Shown here piece by piece: positions 5,185-28,989 of a DNA stretch of 64,000 nt. Position 1 is the stretch's first letter, and the number at the start of each line of letters is the position of its first letter. The stretch is from the NCBI RefSeq assembly GCF_008520305.1, contig NZ_ML703260.1, positions 1 to 64,000 of the forward strand, in the 5' to 3' direction. The stretch comes from Mesorhizobium sp. SARCC-RB16n. Lineage in GTDB: Bacteria > Pseudomonadota > Alphaproteobacteria > Rhizobiales > Rhizobiaceae. The notes below the pieces were generated by a model. It did not search any database, had not been told where the DNA came from, and worked only from the letters and a program-made list of their open reading frames with translations. The position numbers and the translations under genes were made by a program.

Positions 5185-5240
5185 GGGACGTGTAGTCCCA
5201 GAAGGACTCGCCGGGGATGGGAACTACCGAGAAGTCTCGG
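5185..5240 (+). promoter_or_regulatory. Two short hairpins around the start of the giant adhesin gene
   Basis: GGGAC-gtgta-GTCCC occupies 5185-5199, and CCGAGA-ag-TCTCGG occupies 5227-5240. The second overlaps the first codons if translation starts at 5217. If it starts at the next in-frame ATG (5253), both hairpins lie in the 5' leader and could affect translation. No regulator can be named. Confidence 0.35.
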
Positions 5241-8200
5241 CAAGTTGGTGAGATGGCGGCGCGTGGGGAGGGGTTCCACACGCGCGCCGGCTATCGCCGT
5301 TCGAGCATTGCAAGGCATCTCTGGAAGACGACGGCGCTTACGTCGTTGGCGCTGGCGCTTTCGGGCGCGGCCGCCTATGGCGACGATGCCGGGCTGTGGC
5401 AGCCGCAGGTCCGGGCCATCATCGGCGCAGACAACAATGGCGGCAACGCCGCGCTCGAAGGCTTCATCCCGATCAAGCAGACCGCCGAGTCGGTGCTGTT
5501 CCTGGATGTCCGCGCCAAGCACGATTTCAAGGACGCCTTCGGCCAGGACATCGGCCTCGGCATCCGCCGCATCGTCAACCCGGACCTGATGCTGGGCGGC
5601 TACGCCTATTTCAATGCCGAGAGCTACGGCGGTACCCAATTCACCGGCGGCACGCTCGGCGTCGAGGCGATCACGCCGAATTTCGACGCGCATGTGAACG
5701 TCTTCGTGCCGATCAAGGGCGACTCGACCGGCCACTCGGTCGGCTCGACCCTGTCGATGGTCAGCAATCAGCTGATCGAGCAGATCTCGGTGCTCGACCA
5801 TCGCGACTACGCGGCCTGGGGTATCGAGGGCGAGGTCGGCGCGAAGGTGCCGCTCAACCTGCCCGACAAGCATTCGCTGCGGCTGGACATCGGCGGTTAC
5901 CATTTCGAGGATCCGCACGGCGACGACGGCAGCGTCACCGGCGCCAAGGCCGGCATCGAGTATGAAATCGGCGATGTTTTCGGCACCGGAACGTCGCTGA
6001 CCTTCACCGGCGAGGTGCGCAACGACAACCGCGACGACACCCAGTTCGCCGGCAGCGTGCGGCTGAACATCCCGTTCAATCCCGGCGGCGGCTCGGACAA
6101 CACCGCGGCCATCGGCGGCGCGGAGCCTGTCTATCCGGTCAGCGAAGGCCTGCGAAAGCGCGTCAACGAGCGGGTGCGCGGCGATATCGGCGTCCGGATC
6201 CAGAGCCAGGACAAGACCGGCGGCTCGACGACGCGCGTCGCCATCAACGCCGCCACCAATGCAGCCTTCGGAAAATTCTACTTCGCCGACGGCGGCCTGG
6301 CCGGCGTGGGCACGCAGGCCGACCCGACGACGCTTGATGACGCGGTCACCAAGGCCGGCGCCGGCGGCTTCGTCGTGGCTCTGGGCGGCAACGGCAATCT
6401 GACCACCGCCGGGGTGACGCTGGCCACGGGCCAGACCGTCATCGGCGGCGGCGAAAGCGTCACCGCGAAGCTTTTCGACGGCGGCACCGCCACCTTCAAC
6501 CTCGGCGGCAGCGATGGCACGATCCAGGGCACCAACGTCGCCAACAACGTCATCACGCTTGGCAATGGCAACACGCTGAACGGCATCACCATCACCGGCG
6601 GCGCCGACGGTATCTTCGGCAACAACGTCACCGGCACGACGCTGACCAAGGTCACGGTGACGGGTGCCGGCGGCAACGGCGCCGACTTCACCGGCAATTC
6701 GACCAACGTCAGCGCGTCCAATTTCACCGCTACCGGCAACGGCCTCGACGGCCTGCATATCGAGGGCAACGGCACTTACAACTTCACCGGCACGACATTG
6801 CTGCAGAGCAATCTCGACGATGGCCTAGATATCACCGGGGCGGGCACCTACACCTTCGCCACGGTCAACGCGCTGGGCAATGTCGACCGCGGCATAACCG
6901 TGCAGGGCAGCGGCGGCAGCTTCACCACCACCGGCGGCAATATCTCCGGCAATGGCGGCATCGGCATCTACATCGACCCGATCACCGCGCATGTCGTGCT
7001 GGATTCGATCTCCCAGACCGGCGGCACGTCGGGCGTGGTGCTCGACCACGTCTCGGGCAGTTTCACCGTCAACGGCGCCACGACGATTTCCGGGACGTCC
7101 GGACCGGCGATCGCCATTTCGGATTCGCCCGCGGCGATCCGCTTCGGCGACGTCAGCATCACGACGCCCGCCGGCGACGGCATGGTGTTTTCCGGTGTCA
7201 ACGCGGCGGTGGTTGCCGGCAACATCGTCATCTCCGGGCTGGGTCTCGGCCATACCGGACTCGACTTCTCCGGCAGCCAGACGACCTTCACCGCACTGTC
7301 GGCCAATATCAGCGGGTCCGGCGCCGGCTCGATCGGCATCGATCTCGCCGACACGACCGGCGATGCCTCGATCATCATCACCAATGGCGGAACCATTTCG
7401 GGTGTCGACACCGGCGTGCGCCTCGGCATTGCCGGCTCGCTGGCCCACTCGGCCAATGCCCAGTTCAGCTTCGGCGGCGGCTCGATCGCGGGCATCACCG
7501 CCTCGCTCGATGCGCGCGGGCTTAACCAGACGCTCGGCCATTACGGGTTCGGCTCGACCACCTTCAGCGGCCCGCAGCTGTTCGACGTTCAGAACGTGAT
7601 CTTCGTCGGCGCCGCGGCGTCGGGCTCCGGCGACGGCTCATCGCTTGGCAACCTGGCGTCGATCGGTACGGCCGACGGCATCAGCGATAGCAACGCAATC
7701 TTCGTGCTGGTCAACGACGCCGGCAACACGCCGATCGACGCCACGGGCGGCTTCTCGCTCAGTGCCGGCCAGACGCTGGCTTCGTTCGGCAACGGCCGCT
7801 CCTTCTCGCTCGGCGGCGTGCCGATCAACGTTACCGGGGCCAACATCCAGCACGACGTCGTGGTTTCCGATCCCGGCACCGGGGCGGCGACGCTGACCAA
7901 TTCCGGCGCGGGCGCCGTGGTGACGGCGGCCAGCGGCGGCACGTTGGAGGATTTCAACATTTCCGGCGGCAGCGGCGCGGCGATCAGCGGCTCCGGCTCT
8001 TCCGCCCTGACAGTCCAGGGCGTGACGGTGAGCAGCGTCGCCACCGGCCTGTCGCTCAATGGTTTCAGCGGCACAGGCACCTTCACCAACTTCGACATCA
8101 CCAGCGCCGGCACCGGCGTCAGCATCACCGGCGGTACCACCGGCACCTTGACCTTCGATGCGGCGAGTTCGATCACCGGCACGTCCGGCGTGGCGTTCAA

Positions 8201-11200
8201 TATCGATTCCTCGACGCCGAACCTCACCTACAACGGCACGATCAACCAGACCGCCGCCTCCAGCGCGGTCAAGATCAACGCCATGACCGGCGGCAGCGCC
8301 ACCTTCGGCGGCAAGATCACCGCCAGCACGGGCGCGGCCAACGCGATCGACCTGACCGGGAATACCGGCAGCACGATCAACTTCACCGGCGGCCTCGACC
8401 TGACCACCGACGGCGGCTACGGCTTCAGCGCCGTCAATGGCGGCACGCTGACGGTGACCGGCTCCGGCAATACGGTCAACACCGGCGCCGGCGTCACGGA
8501 AAACGGCATTCATCTTGGCGGCGCCGGCGGCCTGACGATCGGCGCGGCCGGCGTGACGTTCGCCAGCGTCACCGTCGATGGTTCCGGCGGCTCGGTGCCG
8601 GCCGGCATCGTCATCGAGAACACCAGCGGCGGCAACGTCACATTCGGCGGCGTCAGCATCAGCCGTGCCAATGGCGACGCCATCCGCCTGACCAATGTCG
8701 CCAGCGGCACCTACAGTTTCAACGGCACGACGACGATTGCCGCGGTCGGCGGCGCGGGTCCCGGCTTCGTCGTTCAGGGCAGCGCCGCGACCGTCAGCGT
8801 CAACAATCTCGTCACCACTAATGTTTCCGGCGCCGATGTCAGCCTGACCAACAACACCGGCACAATCGGCATTGGCGGTACGATCACCAATTCAGGCGCT
8901 GGCGACGGCGTCGTCGTCTCCGGCGGCAGCGCCGCGATCACGGTTTCGGCCGCCATCTTTAGTTCCCCCGGCACGACCGGCACGGCGGTCAAGGTCGACG
9001 GCATCACCGGCGGCTCGGTTGCCTTCACCGGTTCGGTTACCTCGGCCGGTACAGGCAACCTCTTCGCCATCGGCTCGACCACCGCGCCGACGGGTGGCGC
9101 GATCAACTTCACCGGCTCGGCGCTGACGGCAAGCGGCGGTGGCGGCGCGGTCATCGCAGGCCTGGGCACGGCCGCGACCTTCAACGCCACGGCGCCGCTG
9201 TCGATCACCAACGCGACCGGCAATGGCGTGTCGGTCTCCAACGTTGCCGGCAGCGCCACCTTCGGCGCCGTCACCGTGACAACGGCCGGTGGCAACGGCA
9301 TCGATATTTCAGGCAATTCCGGCGCGGTGACTTTCGGCACGACCAATGTGACGCTGGGCGCTGCGGCCAACACCGCCGGCATCAATTTCAGCGGCACCAA
9401 TGCCGGTGTGACCTTCGGCACCACCACCGTCAGCAATGTCGGCGCCAACCAGACCGGCATCGACTTCAGCGGTTCGTCCACGACGGCCGCCCTCGGCCTT
9501 ACCACCATCACCGGCACCGGCGACCTGACCTCGCGCGGCATCGACCTGTCGTCGACGACAGGCAACAAGACCATCACCTTCCTGGCCGGCTCCAGCATCA
9601 GCAATGCCGGCGTCGGCGTCGAACTGGCATCGGATCACTCGACCGCGACTTCGGCCAACGCCAATTTCACCTTTGGCGACGGCACCTCCGCCAATGGGCT
9701 GCAATCCTCCATCACCGCGGCGGCCGGCGGCTACACCGTCAACACGGTCGGGCTGAATCCGGCGCTCGGCAACTACAATTTCAACGACGTCTCCTTCACC
9801 GGCAGCGCCAATCTGGCCAGCGCGGTCGGGGGGGTCATCATGGTCTCGCAGAACGGCGGCGTCATCGCCGCCGGGACCGACGGGCTCAGCGCCGATGTGA
9901 CCACGATCTCGGTTGCCGCGGCCGATGCCATGGCCGGCACGCAGACCTTCGCCTTCGTCGGTACCGTCGATCTCAGTGGCACGCCGTTCACGCTGGATTC
10001 GGGACAGTCGATCACCGGCTTTGGCAACAACACATCCATCCTCACCTCCGGCACCATCCAGCCGGTCAATGTCCAGGGCAATCTCGGCGCCACCGGCGGC
10101 AACGTCACCGGCAATGAGGGCGTGGTCACCGGCAGCGGCGGCTTCCTGCATCTGCTCGGCAGCAATCAGGTGCGCAACACCGCGTTCGACTTCACCGGCG
10201 CCAGCGGCTCGGTCTTCACCATCGACCAAAATGCGCTCGGCTTCAGCAACGCCGGCGGCATCGTCATCGACGGCGTGACGGTCAGCAACGTCGCCGCCGG
10301 CAGTGTGGTTTTCAAGGTCGTCGACGTCGACACCAATGTGTCGATCACCAACAACAACATCAGCGTCGCCGGCACGCTGCTCGACGCCAATGGCGGCGCC
10401 GGCAACATCACGCTCACGCGCGGCACCTTGCCCAACAGCGCGACGCCGGGCACGCTGACCGGCGGCGGCATCTCGATCGCCAACCGCAGCGGCGGCCTGG
10501 TCAACTTCACCGACAAGGTGACGGTCGGCGGCAATGGTGTTTCGCTGACTTCCAACACCGGCTCCACCGTCACTTTCGCGGATGTGGACATCACTACCAA
10601 TGGCGCGACGGCTTTCACCGCCACCGGCGGCGGCACGGTCAATGTCACCACCGGCACGGTGAACGCCACGGGCGCACAGGCGGTGGCGCTCGACGGTATC
10701 ACGGCCGGTATCAACTTCGCCTCGACCAGCGCGACGTTCAGCTCGGGCAACGGCATCGACCTGCAGAATCTCAGCGGCACGGCCGCTTTCGGCTCCGGCA
10801 CGCTGACCAACACTGGTTCGGGCACGGCGTTCAATGTCGGCTCCGCAACCAACCTCAGCGGCGGCAACGCCGCCATTTCCTATGGCGGCACGATCGCCAG
10901 CAACGGCACGGGTGCGTCGGTTTCGATCCAGGAACTGACCGGCGGCTCGGTGACGCTATCGGGCAATCTGACGGACGGCAACGCGGCGGCCGGCGGCAAC
11001 ATCGTCGTCGCCGGCATTGGCAACGGCACGGCAGCGGCCGTCACCTTCTCCGGCACAACCAAGCAGATCAGCTCGGGTGCGACCGACGCCGTCAGCCTTA
11101 TCGGCAATCCGAACGGTACGGTCGACTTCAGCAATGGTGGCCTCGCCATCAAGACCACCGGCGGCACCGGCTTTGGCGCCAGCACCGGCACGGTCAGCGT

Positions 11201-14200
11201 CACCGGCCCAGGCAACACCATCACCACCACGACCAGCACCGCGCTCAACCTCGACGGCGCGACGGTCGGCGCCGGCGGCTTCACCTTCGGCAGCGTCTCG
11301 GTCAACGGCGCGGCGACCGGCATTGCGCTGAACAATGTTTCCGGCGGCTCGATCGGCCTCGGCGTGGTCGATCTGCAAGGCATCACCTCGCGCGGTGTCG
11401 ACATCTCCAGCACGCTCGGCGCGACGCTGAATTTCACCAGCCTCAACATCGGGCTCGGTGCGGCAAACGCGGTCGGCCTCGACCTCAACGGCGCCGCGCT
11501 CGGCGCCAGCAACATCACGGCTGGCGATTTCGACGTCGACGGCGGCAGCTTCGCCGGCACGATAGGCATCGACATGGCCGGCACGACGGGCACCGGCACG
11601 ATCCAGCTCGGCGACACCGTCAACAACAATCCCGGCCCGAGCGGCCAGACCTCGACGATCAGCAATGTCGGCTATGGCGTGCAGTTCTCCAGCGCGACCA
11701 ACGCCCAACTGGTGTTCGGCGACGGCCAGGGTCCGGCCGAATCCTCGATCGCCACGACCGGCGGCCAGGTCATCCACGCCACAGACAGTTTGCCGCTCAG
11801 CGGCGACTATAATTTCAACGACGTCACCTTCACCGGCGATACGTCGAACCTGTCGTCGATCAGTGTCTACTACGTCACCGAGGGGGGCACTGGCGATGGC
11901 AGCCTCGCCAATCCGGGCAGCTATGCCGGCGCGCAGGCGTCCACTACCGCCAATGTCATCGTGCTGATCGACAAGACCGTCGACGCCAGCCAGTCGACGA
12001 TCGACCTCGGCGGCACCTCGTTCCAGCTCGATGACGGGCAGGTTCTGCTCGCCTTCAAGAGTGGCGACGCAGCCATTGACGTCTCGCAGCTTGGTGTCGA
12101 CACCACCGGCGGCGCGGGAGCGGCGTTCCATTTCACCACTGTGCAGAACTCGCCGATCGTCTCGGCGCCGGGCGGCATCGATTCGCTGCGGCCCATCCTG
12201 CAGAGCAACAACGCCATCTCGGTCGTCAGCCTGGCAACATCAGGCACGGGCCTCATCACCGGCGGCGTCCAGAACCTCATCATCCGCAACATCGGCACCG
12301 GCGACGGCATTGCCGTCAGTGCGACGGCCGCTTCCAGTTTCTTCCTGAGGAACAACGACATCGCGGCCGGCGGCAGCGCGCTCGACTTCGCCACGACCGG
12401 CGCCCCGGCCAATACGCTTCTGCTGTCGATCGACGGCAACACTCTCAAATCGACGGGATCGGCGCTGGCAGCGTCGTTCGTCGGCCAGAACATCAATGCG
12501 ACGGACAATTCGATCGCCATCCGGTCCTTTGCCGGCAACAAGGTCACCGGCGGCACCGGCGGCGGCATCGCCTTCAACAATGTCCGGTTCGACTCCGACG
12601 GCCTCGGCGGCACCGTCAGCGTCGGCACACTCGACATCGGCACCACAGGCGCGCGCGTCCAGGGCGACGGCCTCAACCTCACCAGCACCAGCGGGACGCT
12701 CGACCTCGGCACGTTCACCATAGCCAACAATTCAGGCACCGGCCTGCTGGTCGACACAAAGACGGCGGGCACCAACTTCACGCTCAACAGCAGCGGCGGC
12801 TCGGTCGACACCACTGGCGGCGCGGCGTTCAATCTCGACCCGCTGACGGTCAACATGACGATCGGCAGCGTCACCGCCGCGGGCGGCACCAGCGGCATCA
12901 TCTTCGACGGTGTCGCCGGCACCTTCACGGTTACGGGCGCCACGACCATCACCGGCACGTCGGGCGACGGCATCAGCGCCATCAACACCAACACCGGTAC
13001 CTTCAATTTCAACACGGTAACGGTCAACAACGCCCTCACGAGCGGCGGCGGCATCGGCTGGGCCAGCGGCACGCTCACCGTTAGCGGCCTCGCCAACATC
13101 GACACGACCAGTGGCACCGGCCTGACCCAGGGCGGCGGCACGACCAGCTTCACCGGCGGCCTGACCATCGACACCACGTCCGGCACCGGCATTCTCGGCA
13201 GTGGCGGCACGATGGCCATCGCCGCCACCGCCGGCGCCGAGACTGTGAATTCCACCAGCGGCCAGGCGATCGGCCTCACCAGCGTCGCCGCCAACATCGC
13301 GCTGGATTCAACCTCGTCGGGCGGCGGCTCCGTCAATGTGAACCTTATCAACACCAGCGGCACGATCGACCTTGGCTCGGGCGCGTTGACCGGCGCCGCG
13401 GCTGTCTCGTTCCTGGTGAATGGCGGCACGGCGGCAGTCAGCTATTCGGGCAGTGCCACCATCTCGAACGCTGCCGGCACTGCCCTGGAAGTCCAGAACC
13501 GATTGGCCGGGGCCGGACTCGTCTCGCTGAGCGGCAACTTGACCTCCAATGGCAACGGTATCTTCCTGAACAACAATGCCGGCGGCACCGTGACCGCGTC
13601 GGGGGCATCCAACAATTTCACCGGTGCGGGTACCGGCATTACGCTAATCAACAACACCAGCGGCACCTTCAACATCAACGGTGCAAGCTACACGATCGGC
13701 ATGAGCTCGACCGGCGCCGGCGTCGCCATCAGCGGCAACAGCAGCCCGGTGGTCATGAATTTCGGAGGCGGCCTGGCGATCACCACCGCGGCGGGCACGG
13801 GATTCTCCGCGACGGGCGCCGGCACGCTCAACGTGACCGGTTCCGGGAACATGATTTCGACCGGCACCGGCACCGCTCTCAACCTGAACGGCGTCACCGT
13901 CGGCACCGGCGGCGTGAATTTCTCCACCGTTTCGACCACCGGTGCGGCGACCGGCATTGCGCTGGCCAATGTCGCGTCGTCCGGCGGCGGCACCATCGCG
14001 CTCGGCACCGTCAATTTGCAAGGCATCACCTCGCTCGGCGTCGATGTTTCCGGCACGCTGGGTGCCGCCCTGTCCTTCAACTCTCTCGCCATCGGCCTCA
14101 ACAGCTCCACCGCGACGGCCTTCGACCTCAGCAATGCTACGATCAACGCGGCCGTTACCGCCAACGATTTCGATGTCACCAATGCCGCCGCCGGCGCGGG

Positions 14201-17200
14201 CACCTCGATCGGCGTCGACCTGCGCGGCGCCAGCGGCGGCCAGACGGTGCGGTTCGGCGATGCCGCAGTCGGCGGCAACAGCTCCAGCATTGCCGGCGTC
14301 AACACCGCCGTGTTCCTCAACAGCGCGACGAATCTTGCCTTCACCTTTGGCGACGGCGAGTCCGCGACAGACCAGAATTCGACCATCAGCGCCACTACCG
14401 ATATCGACGCCACCAACGCGCCGACGCTCGGAACCTACAATTTCAAGGACGTAAATTTCCAGTCGAGCCCCGGCAACGGCTTCGGCATCGGCAGGATATT
14501 CTTCGTCGGCGCCAGCGCGACCGGCAATGGCAGCGGCAAGGACCAGAGCAATCTGATTTCGTTGACCGGGGTGCAATTCCAGGCCACGACAAACGACGTC
14601 ATCGTCCTCGTCAACGATCAAGGTGTCATCACGGCGACAGGCTCGTTGGTGCTGCAGACTGGCGAACAGGTTCGCGGCTTCGGCAATGGCAACATCAACC
14701 TGGCGCTGACAGTGCCCTCGACCATCCAACTGGCCAGCAACAGCATTTCGATCATCGACCAGACGCCCAACGGCGCCGCGACACTGAGCGCCAGTGCGGG
14801 TATCGACGCCATCAGGCTCGGCGCCAGCGGCAATATCATCGACGGCTTCATCCTCGATGGCGGCGCGCGCGGCATCAAGGACAATGGCTCGGGTGCGTCC
14901 GGCACCACGATCAGCCACATGACGATCCGAAACTTCACCGCGGCCGGTATCGAGATCACGCCTTCGACCAGCACCACAATCGACAATGTGACGTTCTCGG
15001 GCAATGCCACGGACGTGATCCTCAACGCGTCCAACTCCACCATCGCCAACGTCACCAGCACCGGCGCGACAGGCATCGCCTTCGACCTGCGCAATACCAC
15101 CGGCACGACGACGCTGACCAACCTCAACATCACCACGGCGGCGAGCGGCACCGGTATCGTCTTCGGCGGCGCTTCCGGCCCCGGCGGCACGATCACCGGC
15201 ACCAATGTCGACATTTCGGGCGGCAGCGGCATTTCCGTTGTTGGCGGCAATGCCGCGATCAGCTTCGATGGCGCCAGTTCCATCGCCGCTGGCGGCTCGG
15301 GCACAGCGGCAAGCATCACCAACCGCACCGGCGGCAGCTTCGCCTTTGCAGGCACGGTCACCGCTAATGGCGGGGCGAGCGGCATTGTCATTTCCGGCGC
15401 GACGGGGGCGAGCGATGTCAGCTTCACCGGCGCGGTCGATCTCGGTGTCGGCACGACGATGACCGGCACAGCCGTGTCGATCAACAACAACGCTCAGTCG
15501 TCGGTTGTCGCCTTCTCAAACCTCGATGTCGTCACCAACGGCACAACCGGCTTCAGCGCCACGGGCGGCGGCACCGTCAATGTCACGACCGGCACGGTCA
15601 GCTCAACCGGGGCGCAGGCGGTCAACCTCAATGGCGTCGCGACCAGCACCGGCATCAACTTCACCTCGACGACATCGACGGGCGGCGCCAGCAACGTTTC
15701 GCTGACCAACGTCACAGGAGCTGGCGCCGTCAGCCTCGGCTCGGGCGCGCTCAGCGGCGCGTCCGGCACGGCGTTCCTGGTTTCTGGCGGCTCGAACAAT
15801 GTCAGCTACGCCGGCACCATCGCCAAGACGAGCGCCGGCAACGTCGTCAGCGTATCGTCTCACACCGGCAGCACCACCACCTTCAGCGGCACGATTTCGG
15901 CGACAGGCTCCAGCGGCGGAATAGCGCTTGCCAACAACACTGGGGCGATCATCAACTTCACCAACACGCTGACACTGACAGGCACGAACACCACCGGCTT
16001 CAGCGCCACGGGCGGCGGCACGGTGAGCGCGACCGGATCCGGCAGCATCATCAGTTCCGGCACCGCGACGGCGCTCAATGTGGCCAACACGACGATCGGG
16101 TCCGGCGGGTTGAAGTTCCAAAGCATTTCGGCCATCGGATCAAGCGGCAATGCCGGCATCGTCCTTGACACCACCGGCTCCCTGGGCGGCTTGACCGTGT
16201 CGGGAACAGGCACCGCCGGCAGCGGCGGCGTGATCTCCAACAAAACCGGTGGAGACATCCTCACCGGATCGGACGCAAGCGGCCAGACTGTATCCGGCAG
16301 CGGCGGCACCGGCATCTTCCTGCGGAATACGAGCGGTGCTTCATTCACCAACATGCAGCTGAACGACTTCTCCAACTTCGCCGTCTACGGCAACAACGTC
16401 ACCGGCTTCACGCTGGCGAGCAGTGTCGTCAATGGCGTCAACGGCACCAACAATGCCGGCGACCGCGAAGAGAGCTCGATCCGCTTCGACAATCTGCTCG
16501 GCACGGCCTCGATCACGGGTTCGAGCATTTCGGGCGGCTTCAACCAGAACATCGATCTCTACAATACCAGTGGCACGCTCACGCGCCTGACGATGGACAA
16601 CAACACGTTCGGGTTGGTCGGATCGACCGGCAACGACAATGTCAGCGGGCAGGTATTCAACAGCGCGACCGCCAACTACACACTGACCAACAGCACCTTC
16701 GCCGGAACCCGCTCCGACTTCATCGCCTTCCTTGCCAACAACAATGCAACGATGGATGCGGTGGTACGCAGCAACACGTTCCATAATGGCCAGGCTATCG
16801 TCCCCGGCGGCGGCACCGCGGTCGACATCCGTAGCGGATCCGGCGGCCTGACCTCCGCCGCGACGACGACTTTCGATATCTCGCACAACATCCTAACGGA
16901 TGGCGGCGCCAACGCCTTCGATACGGTCGGCATATTCGTCGCCAAGGGCCAGGACAACGGCACCATGTCCGGCACGATCGCCAGCAACGCCATCGGCCCG
17001 GCGAAAGTGAACTCGAATTCCGACGGCATCTTCGTGCGCTCCGCTGGCACCGGCACGTTGACGACCCTGATCCAGAACAACACCATCACAGGCGTTGGCA
17101 ACAACGGCATCCATCTGCAGAACAATGACGGCAGCGCGACGATGAACGCCACGATCTACGGCAACACCGTGTCCTCGCCGACGAGCTCGTTCCCGTTTGC

Positions 17201-17516
17201 CGCGCTGCTGGTCGACAATGGCGCGACAGCGACCGACACCAGCACGACGAACGTCGTCATCGGCACAGGCACTGGAGGCGCAGGCAGTAAGAACACACTG
17301 ACGCACAACGCTCTCTACGCGGTCGACGTTTCGCTAAGCAATTTCAACGCGAATACCCATCTCAATCTTTCTAGAAACGGCTCGGCCCAAAGCACCGCTC
17401 AAGGTGTCATAGGTGACGACAACAATGGCTCGCCGATCGTGGACACGACTGGCGGCAGCGGCGCGATCACATTTGTCAATACGTTACCGACGCTGCCTGC
17501 GGTGGTAGCGCCATAG
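5217..17516 (+). CDS. Giant inverse-autotransporter-like adhesin with beta-helix passenger (4,099 aa)
   Basis: The protein has an N-terminal extension and a hydrophobic signal core at about residues 39-55 (TTALTSLALALSGAAAYG). Residues about 58-290 resemble the inverse-autotransporter (intimin/invasin) beta-barrel, with alternating strands such as GLGIRRIVNPDLMLGGYAYF and a final amphipathic strand FAGSVRLNIPF. In known members this barrel sits in the outer membrane and exports the C-terminal passenger. The passenger, about 3,800 residues, is not Ig-like. It is Gly/Thr/Ser/Asn-rich beta-helix repeat with no cysteine that I can see. It falls into about five super-modules starting near residues 353, 794, 1538, 2216 and 3092, each opening with an F(Y/V)-V/A-x-G stretch and a VLVND/VLID strand. 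A less repetitive beta-helix end runs from about 3,630. The role is probably adhesion or biofilm formation. The start could be 5253 instead. Confidence 0.85.
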   Translation: MGTTEKSRQVGEMAARGEGFHTRAGYRRSSIARHLWKTTALTSLALALSGAAAYGDDAGLWQPQVRAIIGADNNGGNAALEGFIPIKQTAESVLFLDVRAKHDFKDAFGQDIGLGIRRIVNPDLMLGGYAYFNAESYGGTQFTGGTLGVEAITPNFDAHVNVFVPIKGDSTGHSVGSTLSMVSNQLIEQISVLDHRDYAAWGIEGEVGAKVPLNLPDKHSLRLDIGGYHFEDPHGDDGSVTGAKAGIEYEIGDVFGTGTSLTFTGEVRNDNRDDTQFAGSVRLNIPFNPGGGSDNTAAIGGAEPVYPVSEGLRKRVNERVRGDIGVRIQSQDKTGGSTTRVAINAATNAAFGKFYFADGGLAGVGTQADPTTLDDAVTKAGAGGFVVALGGNGNLTTAGVTLATGQTVIGGGESVTAKLFDGGTATFNLGGSDGTIQGTNVANNVITLGNGNTLNGITITGGADGIFGNNVTGTTLTKVTVTGAGGNGADFTGNSTNVSASNFTATGNGLDGLHIEGNGTYNFTGTTLLQSNLDDGLDITGAGTYTFATVNALGNVDRGITVQGSGGSFTTTGGNISGNGGIGIYIDPITAHVVLDSISQTGGTSGVVLDHVSGSFTVNGATTISGTSGPAIAISDSPAAIRFGDVSITTPAGDGMVFSGVNAAVVAGNIVISGLGLGHTGLDFSGSQTTFTALSANISGSGAGSIGIDLADTTGDASIIITNGGTISGVDTGVRLGIAGSLAHSANAQFSFGGGSIAGITASLDARGLNQTLGHYGFGSTTFSGPQLFDVQNVIFVGAAASGSGDGSSLGNLASIGTADGISDSNAIFVLVNDAGNTPIDATGGFSLSAGQTLASFGNGRSFSLGGVPINVTGANIQHDVVVSDPGTGAATLTNSGAGAVVTAASGGTLEDFNISGGSGAAISGSGSSALTVQGVTVSSVATGLSLNGFSGTGTFTNFDITSAGTGVSITGGTTGTLTFDAASSITGTSGVAFNIDSSTPNLTYNGTINQTAASSAVKINAMTGGSATFGGKITASTGAANAIDLTGNTGSTINFTGGLDLTTDGGYGFSAVNGGTLTVTGSGNTVNTGAGVTENGIHLGGAGGLTIGAAGVTFASVTVDGSGGSVPAGIVIENTSGGNVTFGGVSISRANGDAIRLTNVASGTYSFNGTTTIAAVGGAGPGFVVQGSAATVSVNNLVTTNVSGADVSLTNNTGTIGIGGTITNSGAGDGVVVSGGSAAITVSAAIFSSPGTTGTAVKVDGITGGSVAFTGSVTSAGTGNLFAIGSTTAPTGGAINFTGSALTASGGGGAVIAGLGTAATFNATAPLSITNATGNGVSVSNVAGSATFGAVTVTTAGGNGIDISGNSGAVTFGTTNVTLGAAANTAGINFSGTNAGVTFGTTTVSNVGANQTGIDFSGSSTTAALGLTTITGTGDLTSRGIDLSSTTGNKTITFLAGSSISNAGVGVELASDHSTATSANANFTFGDGTSANGLQSSITAAAGGYTVNTVGLNPALGNYNFNDVSFTGSANLASAVGGVIMVSQNGGVIAAGTDGLSADVTTISVAAADAMAGTQTFAFVGTVDLSGTPFTLDSGQSITGFGNNTSILTSGTIQPVNVQGNLGATGGNVTGNEGVVTGSGGFLHLLGSNQVRNTAFDFTGASGSVFTIDQNALGFSNAGGIVIDGVTVSNVAAGSVVFKVVDVDTNVSITNNNISVAGTLLDANGGAGNITLTRGTLPNSATPGTLTGGGISIANRSGGLVNFTDKVTVGGNGVSLTSNTGSTVTFADVDITTNGATAFTATGGGTVNVTTGTVNATGAQAVALDGITAGINFASTSATFSSGNGIDLQNLSGTAAFGSGTLTNTGSGTAFNVGSATNLSGGNAAISYGGTIASNGTGASVSIQELTGGSVTLSGNLTDGNAAAGGNIVVAGIGNGTAAAVTFSGTTKQISSGATDAVSLIGNPNGTVDFSNGGLAIKTTGGTGFGASTGTVSVTGPGNTITTTTSTALNLDGATVGAGGFTFGSVSVNGAATGIALNNVSGGSIGLGVVDLQGITSRGVDISSTLGATLNFTSLNIGLGAANAVGLDLNGAALGASNITAGDFDVDGGSFAGTIGIDMAGTTGTGTIQLGDTVNNNPGPSGQTSTISNVGYGVQFSSATNAQLVFGDGQGPAESSIATTGGQVIHATDSLPLSGDYNFNDVTFTGDTSNLSSISVYYVTEGGTGDGSLANPGSYAGAQASTTANVIVLIDKTVDASQSTIDLGGTSFQLDDGQVLLAFKSGDAAIDVSQLGVDTTGGAGAAFHFTTVQNSPIVSAPGGIDSLRPILQSNNAISVVSLATSGTGLITGGVQNLIIRNIGTGDGIAVSATAASSFFLRNNDIAAGGSALDFATTGAPANTLLLSIDGNTLKSTGSALAASFVGQNINATDNSIAIRSFAGNKVTGGTGGGIAFNNVRFDSDGLGGTVSVGTLDIGTTGARVQGDGLNLTSTSGTLDLGTFTIANNSGTGLLVDTKTAGTNFTLNSSGGSVDTTGGAAFNLDPLTVNMTIGSVTAAGGTSGIIFDGVAGTFTVTGATTITGTSGDGISAINTNTGTFNFNTVTVNNALTSGGGIGWASGTLTVSGLANIDTTSGTGLTQGGGTTSFTGGLTIDTTSGTGILGSGGTMAIAATAGAETVNSTSGQAIGLTSVAANIALDSTSSGGGSVNVNLINTSGTIDLGSGALTGAAAVSFLVNGGTAAVSYSGSATISNAAGTALEVQNRLAGAGLVSLSGNLTSNGNGIFLNNNAGGTVTASGASNNFTGAGTGITLINNTSGTFNINGASYTIGMSSTGAGVAISGNSSPVVMNFGGGLAITTAAGTGFSATGAGTLNVTGSGNMISTGTGTALNLNGVTVGTGGVNFSTVSTTGAATGIALANVASSGGGTIALGTVNLQGITSLGVDVSGTLGAALSFNSLAIGLNSSTATAFDLSNATINAAVTANDFDVTNAAAGAGTSIGVDLRGASGGQTVRFGDAAVGGNSSSIAGVNTAVFLNSATNLAFTFGDGESATDQNSTISATTDIDATNAPTLGTYNFKDVNFQSSPGNGFGIGRIFFVGASATGNGSGKDQSNLISLTGVQFQATTNDVIVLVNDQGVITATGSLVLQTGEQVRGFGNGNINLALTVPSTIQLASNSISIIDQTPNGAATLSASAGIDAIRLGASGNIIDGFILDGGARGIKDNGSGASGTTISHMTIRNFTAAGIEITPSTSTTIDNVTFSGNATDVILNASNSTIANVTSTGATGIAFDLRNTTGTTTLTNLNITTAASGTGIVFGGASGPGGTITGTNVDISGGSGISVVGGNAAISFDGASSIAAGGSGTAASITNRTGGSFAFAGTVTANGGASGIVISGATGASDVSFTGAVDLGVGTTMTGTAVSINNNAQSSVVAFSNLDVVTNGTTGFSATGGGTVNVTTGTVSSTGAQAVNLNGVATSTGINFTSTTSTGGASNVSLTNVTGAGAVSLGSGALSGASGTAFLVSGGSNNVSYAGTIAKTSAGNVVSVSSHTGSTTTFSGTISATGSSGGIALANNTGAIINFTNTLTLTGTNTTGFSATGGGTVSATGSGSIISSGTATALNVANTTIGSGGLKFQSISAIGSSGNAGIVLDTTGSLGGLTVSGTGTAGSGGVISNKTGGDILTGSDASGQTVSGSGGTGIFLRNTSGASFTNMQLNDFSNFAVYGNNVTGFTLASSVVNGVNGTNNAGDREESSIRFDNLLGTASITGSSISGGFNQNIDLYNTSGTLTRLTMDNNTFGLVGSTGNDNVSGQVFNSATANYTLTNSTFAGTRSDFIAFLANNNATMDAVVRSNTFHNGQAIVPGGGTAVDIRSGSGGLTSAATTTFDISHNILTDGGANAFDTVGIFVAKGQDNGTMSGTIASNAIGPAKVNSNSDGIFVRSAGTGTLTTLIQNNTITGVGNNGIHLQNNDGSATMNATIYGNTVSSPTSSFPFAALLVDNGATATDTSTTNVVIGTGTGGAGSKNTLTHNALYAVDVSLSNFNANTHLNLSRNGSAQSTAQGVIGDDNNGSPIVDTTGGSGAITFVNTLPTLPAVVAP

Positions 17517-17655
17517 GCTTTCGAGCCGCCTTCAACCAGAAGCCGGCTATCTTTAATAAAAGCCGATATAAAAATATTATTTTTATCTGCACGACTCTTA
17601 ACGTTGCGTAAGTTTGTAGTTGTGGCATATTGGCCTAAACAACTAGGGGACACCG
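17517..17655 (+). promoter_or_regulatory. AT-rich intergenic region before the tail-collar genes
   Basis: 139 bases, strikingly AT-rich against the GC-rich flanks. It contains a weak hairpin (CGGCT...AGCCG, 17544-17565) followed by an AAAAATATTATTTTT segment that could terminate the adhesin transcript. It is also the likely promoter region for the three downstream genes. I could not assign convincing -35/-10 boxes. AGGGGA lies 5 bases before the ATG at 17656. Confidence 0.4.
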
Positions 17656-18156
17656 ATGGCGGAACCATTTATTTCCGAAATCAGAATCATGTCTTTCGGT
17701 TTTCCGCCGAAAGGCTGGGCGCTGTGCGATGGGCAATTGCTGCCGATCGCTCAGAACCAGCCGCTGTTTTCACTGCTGGGCACCACCTTCGGCGGCGACG
17801 GCCGGGTGAATTTCGCCTTGCCCGATTATCGCGGGCGCGTTCCCATTCATGTCGGCAGCGGTCATACATTGGGTGAGCGCGGCGGCGAGCAGGCGCACAC
17901 GCTTTCGCTCGCGGAACTGCCTTTTCATAGCCACAGCGAACAGGCCACGACGGCCAATGCCGACGTGCCGGCACCCAACGGCAATCTGCTGGCGACGGTC
18001 TCCAACGTCTATACACCGCCAGGCAACCCCACGACGGCGATGGATCCCGGTACGCTAGCCTCTGTCGGCGGCAGCCAGGCGCATATCAACATGCAGCCGT
18101 TTCTGACACTGAGCTTCTGCATCGCCCTGCAGGGCATTTTCCCGTCGCCGACCTGA
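17656..18156 (+). CDS. Phage tail collar domain protein (MdpB-like), copy 1
   Basis: 166 residues, matching the size of microcystin-dependent-protein-type tail collar proteins. The N-terminus shows the collar signature: PKGWALCDGQLLPI, then FSLLGTTFGGDG, then FALPDYRGRVPIHVG. The C-terminus ends in the shared pattern QPFLTLSFCIALQGIFPSPT. Tail collar domains form the tip or collar of phage fibres. Free-standing bacterial members are uncharacterised and have no other phage genes here. It is the first of three tandem paralogues starting 139 bases after the giant adhesin and was probably produced by gene duplication. It is possibly a surface or fibre-associated protein; no signal peptide is visible. 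Confidence 0.9.
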   Translation: MAEPFISEIRIMSFGFPPKGWALCDGQLLPIAQNQPLFSLLGTTFGGDGRVNFALPDYRGRVPIHVGSGHTLGERGGEQAHTLSLAELPFHSHSEQATTANADVPAPNGNLLATVSNVYTPPGNPTTAMDPGTLASVGGSQAHINMQPFLTLSFCIALQGIFPSPT

Positions 18157-18168
18157 GGGAGCACTATC

Positions 18169-18672
18169 ATGGCACAGCCTTATGTTGGCGAAGTCCGTAT
18201 GTTTGCCGGCAATTTCGCGCCTGCCGGATGGATGATGTGCGAGGGGCAGTTGCTGCCCATCTCGGAAAATGAAACGCTGTTCCAATTGATTGGCACTACC
18301 TATGGCGGCGACGGCCAGGAAACCTTCGCGTTGCCGGACCTGCGTGGGCGCCTTCCGATCCATCAGGGCAACAGTTTCATCCTTGCCGAGGCCGGTGGCG
18401 TGGAAGAGGTCACGCTGACGACCCAGCAGATGCCCACGCACACACACCCCTTCGTCGCTTCTCTGAACAACGCGGGGGCGAGTACCCCGACCGGCAATAT
18501 GACCGGTCAGGTCGGTGCGTCGCAAATCTATCGTGAAGCGCCGGCGACCACTCCAATGTCTACGCAGACTGCAGGGCAAACCGGCGGCAACCAACCGCAT
18601 ACCAACTTCCAACCGTATCTCTGCATCAATTTCATCATCTCGCTGTTCGGAATCTTCCCGTCGCCGACTTAA
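18169..18672 (+). CDS. Phage tail collar domain protein (MdpB-like), copy 2
   Basis: 167 residues, 12 bases after copy 1, with GAGGGAGC just ahead of the start. It keeps the family blocks PAGWMMCEGQLLPI, FQLIGTTYGGDG, FALPDLRGRLPIHQG, the His-rich HTHPF segment and the C-terminal QPYLCINFIISLFGIFPSPT. It is clearly paralogous to copies 1 and 3 but diverged, so the three are old duplicates that may form a heteromeric assembly (inference). No export signal is apparent. Function is unknown. Confidence 0.9.
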   Translation: MAQPYVGEVRMFAGNFAPAGWMMCEGQLLPISENETLFQLIGTTYGGDGQETFALPDLRGRLPIHQGNSFILAEAGGVEEVTLTTQQMPTHTHPFVASLNNAGASTPTGNMTGQVGASQIYREAPATTPMSTQTAGQTGGNQPHTNFQPYLCINFIISLFGIFPSPT

Positions 18673-18682
18673 GAGGACCGCC

Positions 18683-19204
18683 ATGGCCGACCCATTCGTC
18701 GCCGAAATTCGCATCTTCCCGTTCAACTTCGCGCCAAAGGGTTGGGCATGGTGCGATGGGCAGTTGCTGCCGCTGTCGCAGAACACTGCGCTTTTCTCCC
18801 TGCTCGGCACCACCTATGGCGGCGACGGCAAGTCCAACTTTGCCTTGCCCGATTTGCAAGGCGGCGCACCGATGCACCCGGGGCAAGGGCCGGGTCTTTC
18901 ATTGCACGATCTCGGCGAGCAAGGTGGTTCGGAGACGGTCTCTCTGCTGATATCGGAGATGCCGCAGCACGGGCACACACTGATGGCGAACATCAATCCC
19001 GCCAATCTGGCGGCCCCAAGTGCGACTCGATCCTTCGCGCGTACGTCTCCTGGACAGTCTTATTCGGCGACGGCCACTTTGACGCCGCTCAGCGATCAGG
19101 CGGTGCGACCGGTCGGCGGCGACCAACCACATAACAACATGCAGCCCTACCTCACCTGCTATTTCTGTATCGCTCTCCAGGGCGTCTTCCCACCACGTCC
19201 CTAA
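18683..19204 (+). CDS. Phage tail collar domain protein (MdpB-like), copy 3
   Basis: 173 residues. The open frame runs further upstream into copy 2, but the ATG at 18683, preceded by AAGAGGA, gives the N-terminus MADPFVAEIRIFPFNFAPKG that aligns with the other two copies. Conserved blocks are KGWAWCDGQLLPL, FSLLGTTYGGDG, FALPDLQGGAPMHPG, HGHTL and a C-terminus QPYLTCYFCIALQGVFPPRP. It lies 10 bases after copy 2 and 6 bases before the GNAT gene, so all four genes are probably one transcript. Confidence 0.9.
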   Translation: MADPFVAEIRIFPFNFAPKGWAWCDGQLLPLSQNTALFSLLGTTYGGDGKSNFALPDLQGGAPMHPGQGPGLSLHDLGEQGGSETVSLLISEMPQHGHTLMANINPANLAAPSATRSFARTSPGQSYSATATLTPLSDQAVRPVGGDQPHNNMQPYLTCYFCIALQGVFPPRP

Positions 19205-19210
19205 TGCCCG

Positions 19211-19729
19211 ATGAGCCATTTTAGCAGGGCGGTCGGCTGGATGCGTGCGGCCGGTGCAGGGCTCACATTCCGCCCCATCACGGACGACGATCTGCCGTTC
19301 CTGGCAGGCGTCTACGCCTCGACCCGCGCCGAGGAACTCACCTTGACCTCCTGGACCGAGGCGCAGAAGGCTGCGTTCCTCGACATGCAGTTCCAAGCGC
19401 AGCACGCGCACTACCGGAAATACTATCCCAACGCCGACTGGCTGGTGACGATGCATGCTGGCAGCGATGTCGGTCGCCTCTATATCGAGCGCTGGCCAGG
19501 CGAGCATAGGATCATCGACATCACCTTTCTACCGGCGTTTCGCGGCAAAGGGTTGGGCTCAGCCCTGCTTGCCGACCTGATCGACGAGGCGGGTGCCGTC
19601 GGCAAGGCGGTCTCGATCCATGTCGAAAAGCACAACCCGGCTATGCGGCTTTACCTGCGACTGGGTTTCACCGTCGCCGAGGACAAGGGTGTCTACGATC
19701 TGATGGTCCGCCCAGCATCCTCATTTTGA
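19211..19729 (+). CDS. GNAT family N-acetyltransferase, in tail-collar operon
   Basis: 172 residues with the GNAT fold. An N-terminal strand LTFRPITDDDLPFLAGVYAS is followed by the acetyl-CoA-binding motif A (FRGKGLGSALL, i.e. R/Q-x-x-G-x-G/A) near residue 120 and motif B (NPAMRLYLRLGF). The gene starts 6 bases after tail-collar copy 3, which suggests it works with these proteins, perhaps by acetylating them or a surface component (inference). A second in-frame ATG at 19241 is possible and would match the usual family N-terminus better. Confidence 0.85.
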   Translation: MSHFSRAVGWMRAAGAGLTFRPITDDDLPFLAGVYASTRAEELTLTSWTEAQKAAFLDMQFQAQHAHYRKYYPNADWLVTMHAGSDVGRLYIERWPGEHRIIDITFLPAFRGKGLGSALLADLIDEAGAVGKAVSIHVEKHNPAMRLYLRLGFTVAEDKGVYDLMVRPASSF

Positions 19730-19730
19730 G

Positions 19731-19777
19731 CCAGTTCCGGACGGGAAGCTGCTTCACATTTTCCTGGAATTGCTCCT
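19731..19777. repeat. Fragment of palindromic intergenic repeat, family E
   Basis: The sequence AGTTCCGGACGGGAAGC...TTTTCCTGGAATTGCTC is a short copy of the element seen more completely at 22163-22259. It lies between the convergent GNAT and oxygenase genes and could form a hairpin that ends both transcripts. Confidence 0.55.
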
Positions 19778-19783
19778 GAGCCA

Positions 19784-20358
19784 TCACGCGCCGCGATACC
19801 AGGAGACGATGGTGAACCGCTCGCCGCGCGTCACCGGGGTGACTTCGTGCGTCGTTTCCGAACGGAATGCCACAAGGGAGCCCGGCAATGCCGGCATGGC
19901 GATGCGCAGGTCCGGACCGCTATAGTGTCCGTGCAGGACCAGCGAGCCGCCGGCGTAGCTTGTGGGCGAAGGATCGTCACATCGAGCGTTGAGAAAGATC
20001 ACCGCCGAGACTTTTCGGAAGCGCGACTCGTCGTGAATGAGCGGCGTGTTACCGTCCTGGTGCGGCACGAAGAAATCCCCCTCCCGGTAGTGCAGGAATT
20101 GGGGTTTCTCGGTACAGCCGAGCGCAAGTCCAAAATGTCGCTCCAAGGCCACTTTCTGGCCTGTAAACAGCACATTCACCCGCGCTTCGGTGGCCGGCGA
20201 GATTTCGGCGCGCCTGGTCTTGCGCACCTCCGGCCATGCGGGCTTCTGCTCAGGGGCCCCCATCAGGCCGGCCGGCCGCGGCTCGCCCGAATTTCAGCGC
20301 ACAGGGCGCCGCACGCCGCTTCGTCGAGCACGCCAGGGATTTCGATATGGTCGATCAT
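19784..20358 (-). pseudogene. Frameshifted 2OG-Fe(II) oxygenase (prolyl-4-hydroxylase-like)
   Basis: The 159-residue ORF from 20263 holds the catalytic double-stranded beta-helix core: the HxD iron motif in FVPHQDGNTP, the distal His in TTHEVTP and the 2-oxoglutarate Arg in RGERFTI. The first 31 residues (MIDHIEIPGVLDEAACGALC..., starting at 20358) lie in another frame, ending at a TGA that overlaps the next ATG (TGATG, 20261-20265). Immediately before it is GGCCGGCCGGCC. Adding one GGCC unit joins both frames into RASRGRPAGLMGAPEQK without a stop. The locus is therefore a broken gene, a slippage switch, an assembly error, or two translationally coupled ORFs. Its neighbours are DUF6916 upstream and the tail-collar operon, facing it. 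Confidence 0.75.
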
Positions 20359-20416
20359 GTGTCGAGCCGCCACCGCCCTGATGGTCCGATCGTCGCTCTG
20401 ACCGGATCGCCGAAAA

Positions 20417-20683
20417 TCAGTTGAACACCGCCTCGTAGACCCGTCCCGTCGCGTCGGCCGCCACCGGCACGATGAAGATGTCGTGGGTGCCGCTTTTGCC
20501 GGCAAGACTGTAGATCGCCTGTGGCAGCGCCGCATCGCCCGGGCCCCTGAACAACAGAGAGAATCCGCCGCCGGGGCGCGGGCTGGCGGGGATCGGCCTG
20601 ATATCGGTCAACTCAAGCGCAATCGACCTCTCGCCGAGCGTGATGGAGAAGGTCGTGCCCTGTTCGAAATCCGTGATCTTCAT
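20417..20683 (-). CDS. DUF6916 family protein
   Basis: An 88-residue protein of unknown function. The recognisable family pattern is an N-terminal LELTDIRPIP, a central GGGFSLLFRGPGDAALPQAIY, then DIFIVPVAAD and the terminal YEAVFN. The composition suggests a small all-beta fold with no signal peptide. I recall this family occurring beside tail-collar (MdpB-like) proteins in other bacteria. The pairing here, on the opposite strand and next to the oxygenase, fits that. A structural or accessory role in the same assembly is inference only. Confidence 0.7.
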   Translation of the reverse strand: MKITDFEQGTTFSITLGERSIALELTDIRPIPASPRPGGGFSLLFRGPGDAALPQAIYSLAGKSGTHDIFIVPVAADATGRVYEAVFN

Positions 20684-20995
20684 ACCATGCGCCTCGATCC
20701 GCCTGCCGCGACGGGCAATGTCGCCGCTTCACGGCTGACTGTCCATAGCGGCAAGCCGCCCTCGCGGCATGGCGCGGTACAAAGTTCGGCGTAAATCCGC
20801 ATTGTGGCGCCGTGCATGCTTTTGTGGAGGCGGGGAACATTGTAGAGCCTTTACTTCGATTTGCGCACGATCTCTTGCCAACCCCTTGCCCAACCCCTTG
20901 CCCAACCGAAGATCAGCGCAGAAAAACAGATCCCGGCGGGATCGCGTGTAAAGCGGACCGGTGCAACCGGGTCGCGGGAGAAGAGGAACCGGACG
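20684..20995. other. Intergenic region between DUF6916 and SapC genes, with a short tandem repeat
   Basis: 312 bases without a convincing gene. It must contain divergent promoters for the DUF6916/oxygenase pair and for sapC. From about 20878 to 20908 the 12-base unit CAACCCCTTGCC is repeated about two and a half times. AGAGGAAC precedes the sapC start. Confidence 0.5.
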
Positions 20996-21799
20996 ATGGC
21001 CGACAGCGGTGTGAAGAAGGAAACGGTGCCGGCGGGCGAATCCATGCCGCTGTTCTATACGAGGCCCGAGGCGCTCAATCCGACCCGGCACGGCTCGCTG
21101 GGTCTCGCCGCGCGCAGCGACTTCTCCTTCGCACGCTCGGCGCACGCCATTCCGGTGGTGGCGTCGGAAATGCCGGCGGCGATGCGCTCCTACCCGATCG
21201 TCTTCATCGGCCCCGCCAAGGCGCCTGTCATCATCACCGGCGTGCGCCAGGACGAGAACCTGTTCGTCGATGCCGACGGCAAATGGAACGCGCCGCACTA
21301 CGTTCCGGCCTATGTCCGCCGCTATCCTTTCATCCTGGCCGAGGACCCGACCTCGGCCGGCCGGCTGACGCTGTGCGCCGACCGGGCGAGCGAGCGCGTG
21401 GTCGACCAACTGCTGGCGCCGTCCCGCGACGACAAGGTGCTGCCGTTCTTCAGCGGCAACGAACCGACCGAGGCGACCAAGCAGGCGCTCGCCTTCTGCA
21501 ACCAGTTCCAGATCGACTTCAGGGCCACCCGCGAGATGGTCGACAAGATCGACGCGCACGGCCTGTTTTCGCCGCGCCAGAGCACGGTGACGCTGGAAGG
21601 CGGCGAAGTGCTCAACCTCACCGATTTCCAGGTGGTCGACGAGGCGGCCTTCAACAAATTGAGCGACGAGGCCTTCCTCGACCTCAGAAAGTCCGGCGCG
21701 CTCGGCCTGCTCTATTGCCACCTCGCCTCGACCAATAGCTGGACCTCGCTGGTGCACCAGGCGTCGGTGCGCAAGGCGGAGCGGGCGAAGGGCGCCTGA
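20996..21799 (+). CDS. SapC family protein
   Basis: 267 residues that read as a SapC-family protein. Features are an N-terminal PLFYTRPEALNPTRHG, SFARSAHAIPVVASEM, a YPIVFIG strand, the WNAPHYVPAYVRRYPFILAED block typical of the family, and a C-terminal LRKSGALGLLYCHLAS. SapC proteins are named after S-layer/peptide-transport loci, but their biochemical role is unknown. They often sit with outer-surface and oxygenase genes, as here. The start was placed at 20996 after AGAGGAAC; the upstream frame is low-complexity. It follows the adhesin/tail-collar region. Confidence 0.82.
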   Translation: MADSGVKKETVPAGESMPLFYTRPEALNPTRHGSLGLAARSDFSFARSAHAIPVVASEMPAAMRSYPIVFIGPAKAPVIITGVRQDENLFVDADGKWNAPHYVPAYVRRYPFILAEDPTSAGRLTLCADRASERVVDQLLAPSRDDKVLPFFSGNEPTEATKQALAFCNQFQIDFRATREMVDKIDAHGLFSPRQSTVTLEGGEVLNLTDFQVVDEAAFNKLSDEAFLDLRKSGALGLLYCHLASTNSWTSLVHQASVRKAERAKGA

Positions 21800-22468: not shown

Positions 22469-22543
22469 TGGAGCGGGTGAAGCGATTCGAACGCTCGACC
22501 CCAACCTTGGCAAGGTTGTGCTCTACCCCTGAGCTACACCCGC
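22469..22543 (-). tRNA. tRNA-Gly (GCC anticodon)
   Basis: 75 nt including an encoded CCA. The acceptor stem GCGGGTG pairs with CACCCGC. A D-arm AGCTCAGGGGTAGAGC, an anticodon arm CAACCTTGCCAAGGTTG with GCC, and a T-arm containing GTTCGAATC are all present. Confidence 0.95.
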
Positions 22544-28600: not shown

Positions 28601-28989
28601 GCCAGCGACATCCGGTCCCCCCATTCGAGCAGGTCGTCGCGCCGGAGCAGGGTGGCGCCCTTTTCGGTCTCGTCGCGCAGATTGGCCTGGGTGAGCATGC
28701 GGCACAGATGCCCCCAGCCCTTGCGGTCCCTGGGATAGGCGAGAATGTCAGGCGTGCCGTCGTCAAAAACCAGCCGGCAGCCGGGATGATAGGAAAGCTT
28801 TTCGACCTTGGCCTGCTGCCAGGCGCGCACCACGCCGGCCACGCTGTTGCGGTCGGCGAGCCCGATCGCGGAGAAGCCCATGAGCTTGGCCGCGACCACG
28901 AGCTCCTCCGGCTTGGAGGCGCCGCGCAGGAAGGAGAAATTCGACTGGATGCCGAACTCGGCATAGGGGATGACGGTCAGCGCGTTCAT
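25645..28989 (-). CDS. dnaE2: Error-prone DNA polymerase III alpha subunit, SOS mutasome
   Basis: 1,114 residues, the size of DnaE2/ImuC. The N-terminal PHP domain starts [21 protein letters not shown]. The polymerase core has [17 protein letters not shown] and the catalytic aspartates PDIDVDF near residue 385. A C-terminal OB fold ([14 protein letters not shown]...VIFWERTF) is present. The protein extends DNA across lesions together with ImuA and ImuB. The start is 28989, where ATGA overlaps the imuB stop, so the genes are translationally coupled; the frame is open further upstream inside imuB. Regulation comes from the LexA box ahead of imuA. Confidence 0.95.

Follow-up and report, generated by a model that had tools for sequence, protein, structure and literature searches.

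In the present study, we identified a cassette of three collar-domain genes beside giant surface proteins in bacteria of several phyla, and these results suggest an undescribed surface structure. The loci share a gene composition, each collar triplet contains one member of each of three clades, and giants are linked to the collars. The two kinds of acyltransferase beside the collars exclude each other, the collar N-termini correlate with the enzyme present, and Tat-like signals occur on only some of the subunits. From these features we infer a collar heterotrimer that would hold a metal ion, be acylated, contact the giant protein and function in adhesion. A literature search, with subscription papers mostly outside its reach, found no description of the cassette.

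Gene content of the Mesorhizobium locus

The window was a stretch of 64,000 nucleotides from Mesorhizobium sp. SARCC-RB16n (contig NZ_ML703260.1). Pfam and ORF checks confirmed all of the genes that an earlier note had named in this DNA, and its statement that other phage genes are absent holds for the Pfam-searched window proteins (Table 1). The three collar proteins scored 92.3, 100.1 and 91.5 bits against PF07484, above the Pfam gathering score of 24. The alpha, beta, gamma and GNAT genes are separated by gaps of 12, 10 and 6 bases, and the alpha gene begins 139 bases after the end of the giant gene. The DUF6916 and oxygenase genes lie on the opposite strand and face the collar and GNAT genes. 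The beta collar shares 87% identity with its counterpart in M. loti CJ3sym. The signal in a promoter scan was at chance level.

Table 1. Features of the locus in the window (coordinates of the forward strand)
Feature	Position	Strand	Evidence
Giant secreted beta-helix protein, 4099 aa	5217..17516	+	Beta_helix PF13229, 5.5e-6
Inverse-autotransporter-type N-terminal barrel of the giant	about 5397-6206	+	PF11924 in homologous N-termini
Collar protein alpha	17656..18156	+	PF07484, 1.8e-26; alpha clade
Collar protein beta	18169..18672	+	PF07484, 6.4e-29; beta clade; HxH at residues 91 and 93
Collar protein gamma	18683..19204	+	PF07484, 3.3e-26; gamma clade; start revised in the present study
RimI-like GNAT acetyltransferase; proposed to acetylate the collar N-termini	19211..19729	+	PF00583, 3e-11
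2OG-Fe(II) oxygenase	19784..20263	-	PF13640, 1.3e-16; N-terminal part in another frame, about 20264-20358
DUF6916, six-stranded beta-barrel, proposed cassette partner	20417..20683	-	PF21880, 1.8e-21
SapC-family gene	20996..21799	+	PF07277, 2.4e-62; start revised in the present study

Three collar paralogues, one of each

Bacterial genomes were scanned with the beta collar alone as the query, which gave 136 related stretches. The best 80 were retained and, together with the window, formed 81 loci that were examined using stop-to-stop reading frames and HMMs built from these loci. According to their record titles, the best 80 of the 136 loci belong to seven phyla (Pseudomonadota, Actinomycetota, Bacteroidota, Chloroflexota, Acidobacteriota, Verrucomicrobiota and Bacillota).

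These loci held 82 complete collar triplets, or 246 proteins of about 165-175 aa; four loci (L024, L026, L056 and L057) carried two complete triplets each, and three with incomplete triplets (L004, L016 and L055) were left out. A FastTree phylogeny divided the 246 collars into three non-overlapping clades, each with 82 members (SH-like supports 0.90, 0.97 and 0.87). Every triplet (82/82) consisted of one alpha, one beta and one gamma protein; the loci were selected by similarity to beta, a choice that cannot by itself impose the presence of alpha and gamma. In 67 triplets the genes run alpha-beta-gamma; the other 15 have a different order but still retain one of each. A tree of a 96-tip subset recovered the same clades, with alpha, beta and gamma found in 46, 59 and 41 of 60 bootstrap replicates (FastTree), respectively. 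Since a homotrimer does not need three retained partners, we favor a heterotrimer as the product of the three genes. One further locus (L202, positions 9536-11215) contains a single 560-aa ORF that fuses three collar domains; their alpha, beta and gamma identities were not separable, and neither a GNAT nor a giant gene was found beside it.

Fold and putative metal site of the collars

A profile of 88 aligned collars matched a cyanophage fibre (8kec, 3.2e-9) and the tip of T4 gp12 (1ocy, 1.1e-4) in the PDB, and a fold search with the model of the beta collar returned the same top matches (8kec, 6.9e-5; 1ocy, 2.6e-3). Both of these structures are of fibre tips that form trimers. The monomer model of beta (pLDDT 68) was confident to approximately residue 65 only and poor beyond it; the poorly modeled C-terminal part may correspond to a fold that exists only in a trimer. 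The HxH motif (beta residues 91 and 93) and His144 were invariant in the 88 collars, and HxH plus the third histidine were conserved in more than 95% of the members within each of the alpha, beta and gamma clades. In gp12, HxH binds metal, and the gp12 tip is a homotrimer on the phage shaft. The collars resemble gp12-type fibres (1ocy and 8kec) in their domain and the conserved HxH motif, and match them in sequence and fold, weakly but clearly. In contrast, the present genes encode three obligate paralogues without a shaft, lie beside giant adhesins, and are located in bacterial chromosomes and plasmids.

Giant adhesin-like neighbours

A giant was defined as an ORF with an adhesin-like composition, 700 aa or longer, located within 2 kb of the collars, and linkage was assessed in the 65 loci whose flanks reached 2 kb or more on both sides. 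A giant was detected in 56 of these 65 loci under a loose composition cut that admitted some antisense frames, and none was nearby in the remaining nine. When the composition cut was tightened, a giant was detected in 60 of the 81 loci. As a control, ten 20-kb regions were taken arbitrarily from six of the genomes, and one ORF in them (728 aa) exceeded the loose cut.

Most of nine giants searched outside the window contained Big_9 and cadherin-like repeats. Their secretion domains differed: T9SS sorting domains were found in the giants of Flavobacterium (L021) and Dyadobacter (L018), SLH in that of Paenibacillus (L072), and the ESPR and TPS domains of two-partner secretion in that of Massilia (L058). 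IAT_beta (PF11924) was detected in two of four Mesorhizobium-type giant N-termini (best E-value 4.5e-8); the window copy itself had no match, and three relatives were 82-89% identical to it in this region. NCBIfam inverse-autotransporter models matched the giant weakly, far below the cut-off (1.8e-4 and 7.4e-3). The N-terminal barrel of the Mesorhizobium giants resembles that of type Ve inverse autotransporters such as intimin and invasin. However, inverse autotransport is only one of several secretion types found beside the collars, and the differing domains indicate that the cassette has been combined with stalks of different secretion types. A shared C-terminus of the giants was considered as a docking site and rejected: one seed linked 12 of 49 C-termini, which could reflect generic beta-helix similarity, and other seeds linked close relatives only.

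Acyltransferases and the collar N-termini

On a Spirosoma plasmid, the position of the GNAT gene is occupied by a formyltransferase. We examined the enzymes in 123 loci, consisting of the 81 loci, 36 further regions selected for the presence of collars, and six plasmid loci. GNAT was present in 78 and formyltransferase in 13, and no locus had both; neither enzyme was found in 21 loci with adequate flanks. The proposal of the earlier note that modifying enzymes accompany fibre-like proteins holds for the acyltransferases, because this second kind replaces GNAT in 13 loci, but not for the hydroxylase discussed below.

The collar N-termini differ with the enzyme. Residue 2 was small in 229 of 241 collars from GNAT loci (Asp in 11 and Asn in one), whereas it was Asp or Glu in 27 of 36 and small in 7 of 36 from formyltransferase loci; nine loci with neither enzyme and short flanks were left out of this table. 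The difference (Fisher p 2.9e-22) is uncorrected for relatedness and not phylogenetically independent because the formyltransferase loci are nearly all from Bacteroidota with divergent collars. In another table of 86 triplets, residue 2 was mostly small in 67/67 triplets with GNAT versus 8/19 without it. Typical starts were Met-Ala-Glu-Pro for alpha (40), Met-Ala-Gln-Pro for beta (37) and Met-Ala-Asp-Pro for gamma (34), and those of Spirosoma were Met-Asp-Pro, Met-Glu-Pro and Met-Asp-Pro, respectively. The residue available for capping would thus hold the same position before the motif in both types.

We consider it possible, albeit not probable, that the acyltransferases modify another target, such as an amino sugar within a glycan attached to the giant, and that the collar N-termini merely track lineage. 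The phylogenetic confounding described above is consistent with this explanation, and formyltransferases of this fold include sugar enzymes, with the Spirosoma protein matching ArnA (6.5e-20) and GDP-sugar formyltransferases (1e-14). However, its best matches are Met-tRNA formyltransferases (5uai, 3.7e-26), and a glycosyltransferase was seen in one of six annotated loci inspected (Deinococcus). Furthermore, the NCBIfam model nearest to the GNAT is RimI (TIGR01575, 4.3e-9), albeit at 36.6 bits against a cut-off of 86.4. The GNAT resembles RimI-type N-alpha-acetyltransferases in this respect, and its substrate N-termini would be Ala or Ser; it differs in its score under the cut-off and in its linkage to collars rather than ribosomal proteins. 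We prefer the collar N-termini as the substrate.

DUF6916

Among 190 alphaproteobacterial genomes, DUF6916 occurred ten times in eight genomes (nine above the cut-off), and all ten copies were within 2.6 kb of a collar domain; collars were found in 24 of the 190 genomes. It was also detected at five places in 5/198 genomes of Bacteroidota, ten places in 7/198 of Actinomycetota and 16 places in 10/149 of Acidobacteriota. Across these four sampled taxa, collars were within 7 kb of 37 of the 41 places, the exceptions being L127, L142, L143 and L146.

In the 123 loci, DUF6916 accompanied GNAT in 67 of 78 cases versus none of the 45 other loci. Outside this table, L244, L245 and L248 carry DUF6916 and collars with no GNAT in approximately 20 kb. 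These loci weaken the view of DUF6916 as a strict partner of GNAT; the two are associated, not inseparable. An AF2 model of DUF6916 was a confident six-stranded barrel (pLDDT 94.7), a fold search with which gave no significant match; matches to PilZ-like, YcgR-N-like or head-tail-connector-like barrels were too weak to support such an assignment. No mention of DUF6916 was found in the literature searched, with subscription papers mostly outside its reach. Separately, a DUF6916 profile weakly matched chagasin (1.6e-4 over 39 residues).

Export and location of the collars

No signal peptide was seen by eye in the GNAT-type collars. Tat-like signals, scanned as twin arginines together with a hydrophobic stretch using our own criteria instead of a trained predictor, were found in 11 loci in all, including nine triplets of Bacteroidota. 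Within these nine, the signals were on alpha and gamma in five Hymenobacter-type triplets (L046, L069, L079, L228 and L231) and on a single subunit in four (alpha in L039, gamma in L205 and L214, and a gamma-like protein in L210); beta had none (0/9). The flanks of L205, L210 and L214 are short, and the collars of L210 do not separate cleanly into alpha, beta and gamma. Tat is known to co-export a signal-less partner within a folded complex, which would explain a beta collar without a signal. Sec-like signals were seen by eye in L216 and L236.

An improbable alternative is that the collars have an intracellular role, perhaps as assembly factors or as storage proteins, and do not belong to a surface structure. 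The lack of a visible signal peptide in GNAT-type collars fits this explanation, and, in the part of the source available, RhiA, which is encoded beside the collar protein RhiB, serves as a cytoplasmic marker (PMC2275737). The Tat-like and Sec-like signals argue against it, as does a pfam07484 collar-domain protein of Ruegeria pomeroyi, which may or may not be a triplet member, detected outside the cells according to the available part of an exoproteome study (PMC4949626). According to the excerpt available, a soil metaproteome contained COG4675 proteins (PMC5579227). RhiB of Rhizobium is a collar-domain protein with a proposed role in plant interactions in the accessible sections of two sources (PMC13133039 and PMC6969944). 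As described in these partial sources, RhiB of the rhiABC(D) operon of Rhizobium leguminosarum (COG4675, 'microcystin-dependent protein') resembles the present proteins as a bacterial collar-domain protein. However, rhi has one collar gene in a quorum-sensing operon, whereas the present cassette has three. We favor a surface location for the collars.

Extent of the conserved set

Collars were found in all 81 loci, GNAT in 68, DUF6916 in 60, SapC in six and the oxygenase in five (including one weak match 5 kb away); absences counted in this manner are upper bounds because many contigs are cut. The conserved core is smaller than the set that the earlier note grouped together, and its distribution is much wider. 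The collars, GNAT, DUF6916 and giant recur in seven phyla, in agreement with that grouping, whereas SapC and the oxygenase are local, lineage-specific additions outside the conserved set. The DUF6916-collar and giant-collar pairs are neighbours more often than by chance.

It is very unlikely that the full set, with SapC and the oxygenase, works as a single machine for the hydroxylation and acetylation of a fibre, and we rejected this explanation on conservation. Two other loci (L009 and L054) contain all members together, as does the window. However, in addition to the low counts above, the window oxygenase is split across two frames, with approximately 30 N-terminal codons out of frame with the remainder, whereas the copies of L009, L045 and L054 are open from end to end. 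At this locus, an Aminobacter plasmid retains SapC with no annotated oxygenase (one record). The idea of hydroxylation, therefore, relies on a lineage-specific gene, and in the window this gene is split as well.

Origin of the collar genes

The collar domain is the one found in phage tail fibres; nevertheless, a remnant of a phage tail or tail-like particle is highly improbable, and a prophage remnant was rejected, because the DNA patterns that matched 157 bacterial stretches detected no triplet-type collar in 2.9 million viral contigs, all 409 phage records with a collar match were less than 60% identical, DUF6916 was absent from phages and viral contigs at the sensitivity used, and the one-of-each triplet is retained across phyla. 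Six annotated plasmid loci, like the Pfam-searched proteins of the window, contained no other tail or virion genes.

Proposed model and implications

We consider a metal-locked, N-terminally acylated alpha-beta-gamma collar heterotrimer, located at the surface with a giant stalk, to have approximately even chances of being correct. The core would be a surface cassette with a mobile host range, consisting of a giant secreted stalk and three obligate collar paralogues. Alpha, beta and gamma may co-fold in the cytoplasm into one heterotrimer similar to a short-tail-fibre tip of phages, in which the HxH motif of each chain would provide two of the six ligands of a central metal ion. A dedicated acyltransferase may then cap the N-termini of the chains: GNAT would place an acetyl group on Ala or Ser once Met is removed, and the formyltransferase a formyl group on the retained Met. 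The folded trimer would move to the surface, via Tat in some lineages, and act there with the giant, most likely as the tip of an adhesive stalk, with a binding or capping role.

A more general proposal is speculative, and we regard it as rather doubtful. In many phyla, the surface tip may be an obligate collar heterotrimer that needs acyl caps, with acetyl (GNAT and DUF6916) and formyl caps swappable before an Asp/Glu/Gln-Pro-aromatic motif, and may be exported whole onto any giant stalk that can be secreted.

The system allows direct tests of whether a phage-type fibre tip may be heterotrimeric and whether N-terminal acylation may be a dedicated maturation step. If true, maturation by a dedicated N-terminal formylation would be new. 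If the model is right, non-phage 'tail fiber' genes, DUF6916 and the linked GNAT would have a common purpose. Moreover, soil- and water-dwelling bacteria from seven or more phyla would share a surface system in which the tip is conserved and the stalk is exchanged to suit each envelope.

Variation in gene content at the collar loci

An additional gene lies between gamma and the GNAT gene in several of the compared loci from other bacterial genomes (table below). It matches Tectonin (0.0095) and Beta-prop (0.028), both weakly, and its copies in Aminobacter, Mesorhizobium, and Ruegeria are homologues. The periplasmic-binding-protein-like gene of the Deinococcus locus has relatives that adjoin collars in four more loci (L017, L019, L050, and L074). 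In a Bacteroidota genome, three collar domains are carried by one ORF. Neither a collar nor a GNAT gene was present in approximately 20 kb around the DUF6916 genes of loci L127, L143, and L146 (L152, L154, and L156).

Features at the compared loci and downstream of the window locus
Feature	Position	Strand	Remarks
Additional gene, gamma-GNAT interval	L222:10071-11555; L225:10126-11343; also L001, L002, L003, L008		weak beta-propeller matches
Periplasmic-binding-protein-like gene, adjoins collars	L223:7081-8241		PF13458; Deinococcus
ORF with three collar domains	L202:9536-11215		560 aa; Bacteroidota
tRNA-Gly gene, 3' of locus	window 22469-22543	-	
DNA polymerase III alpha-type gene, 3' of locus	window 25648-29145	-	PF07733

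A frame comparison revealed that the oxygenase gene of the window (19784-20358, minus strand) is spread across two reading frames, while a single open frame is present in loci L009, L045, and L054. Either genuine damage to the gene or an error in the sequencing may account for this split.

Some giants encoded 5' of the collars in different phyla, including that of L039, appear to have similar C-terminal ends, and one seed recovered 12 of 49. This likeness possibly reflects a docking region or generic beta-helix similarity.
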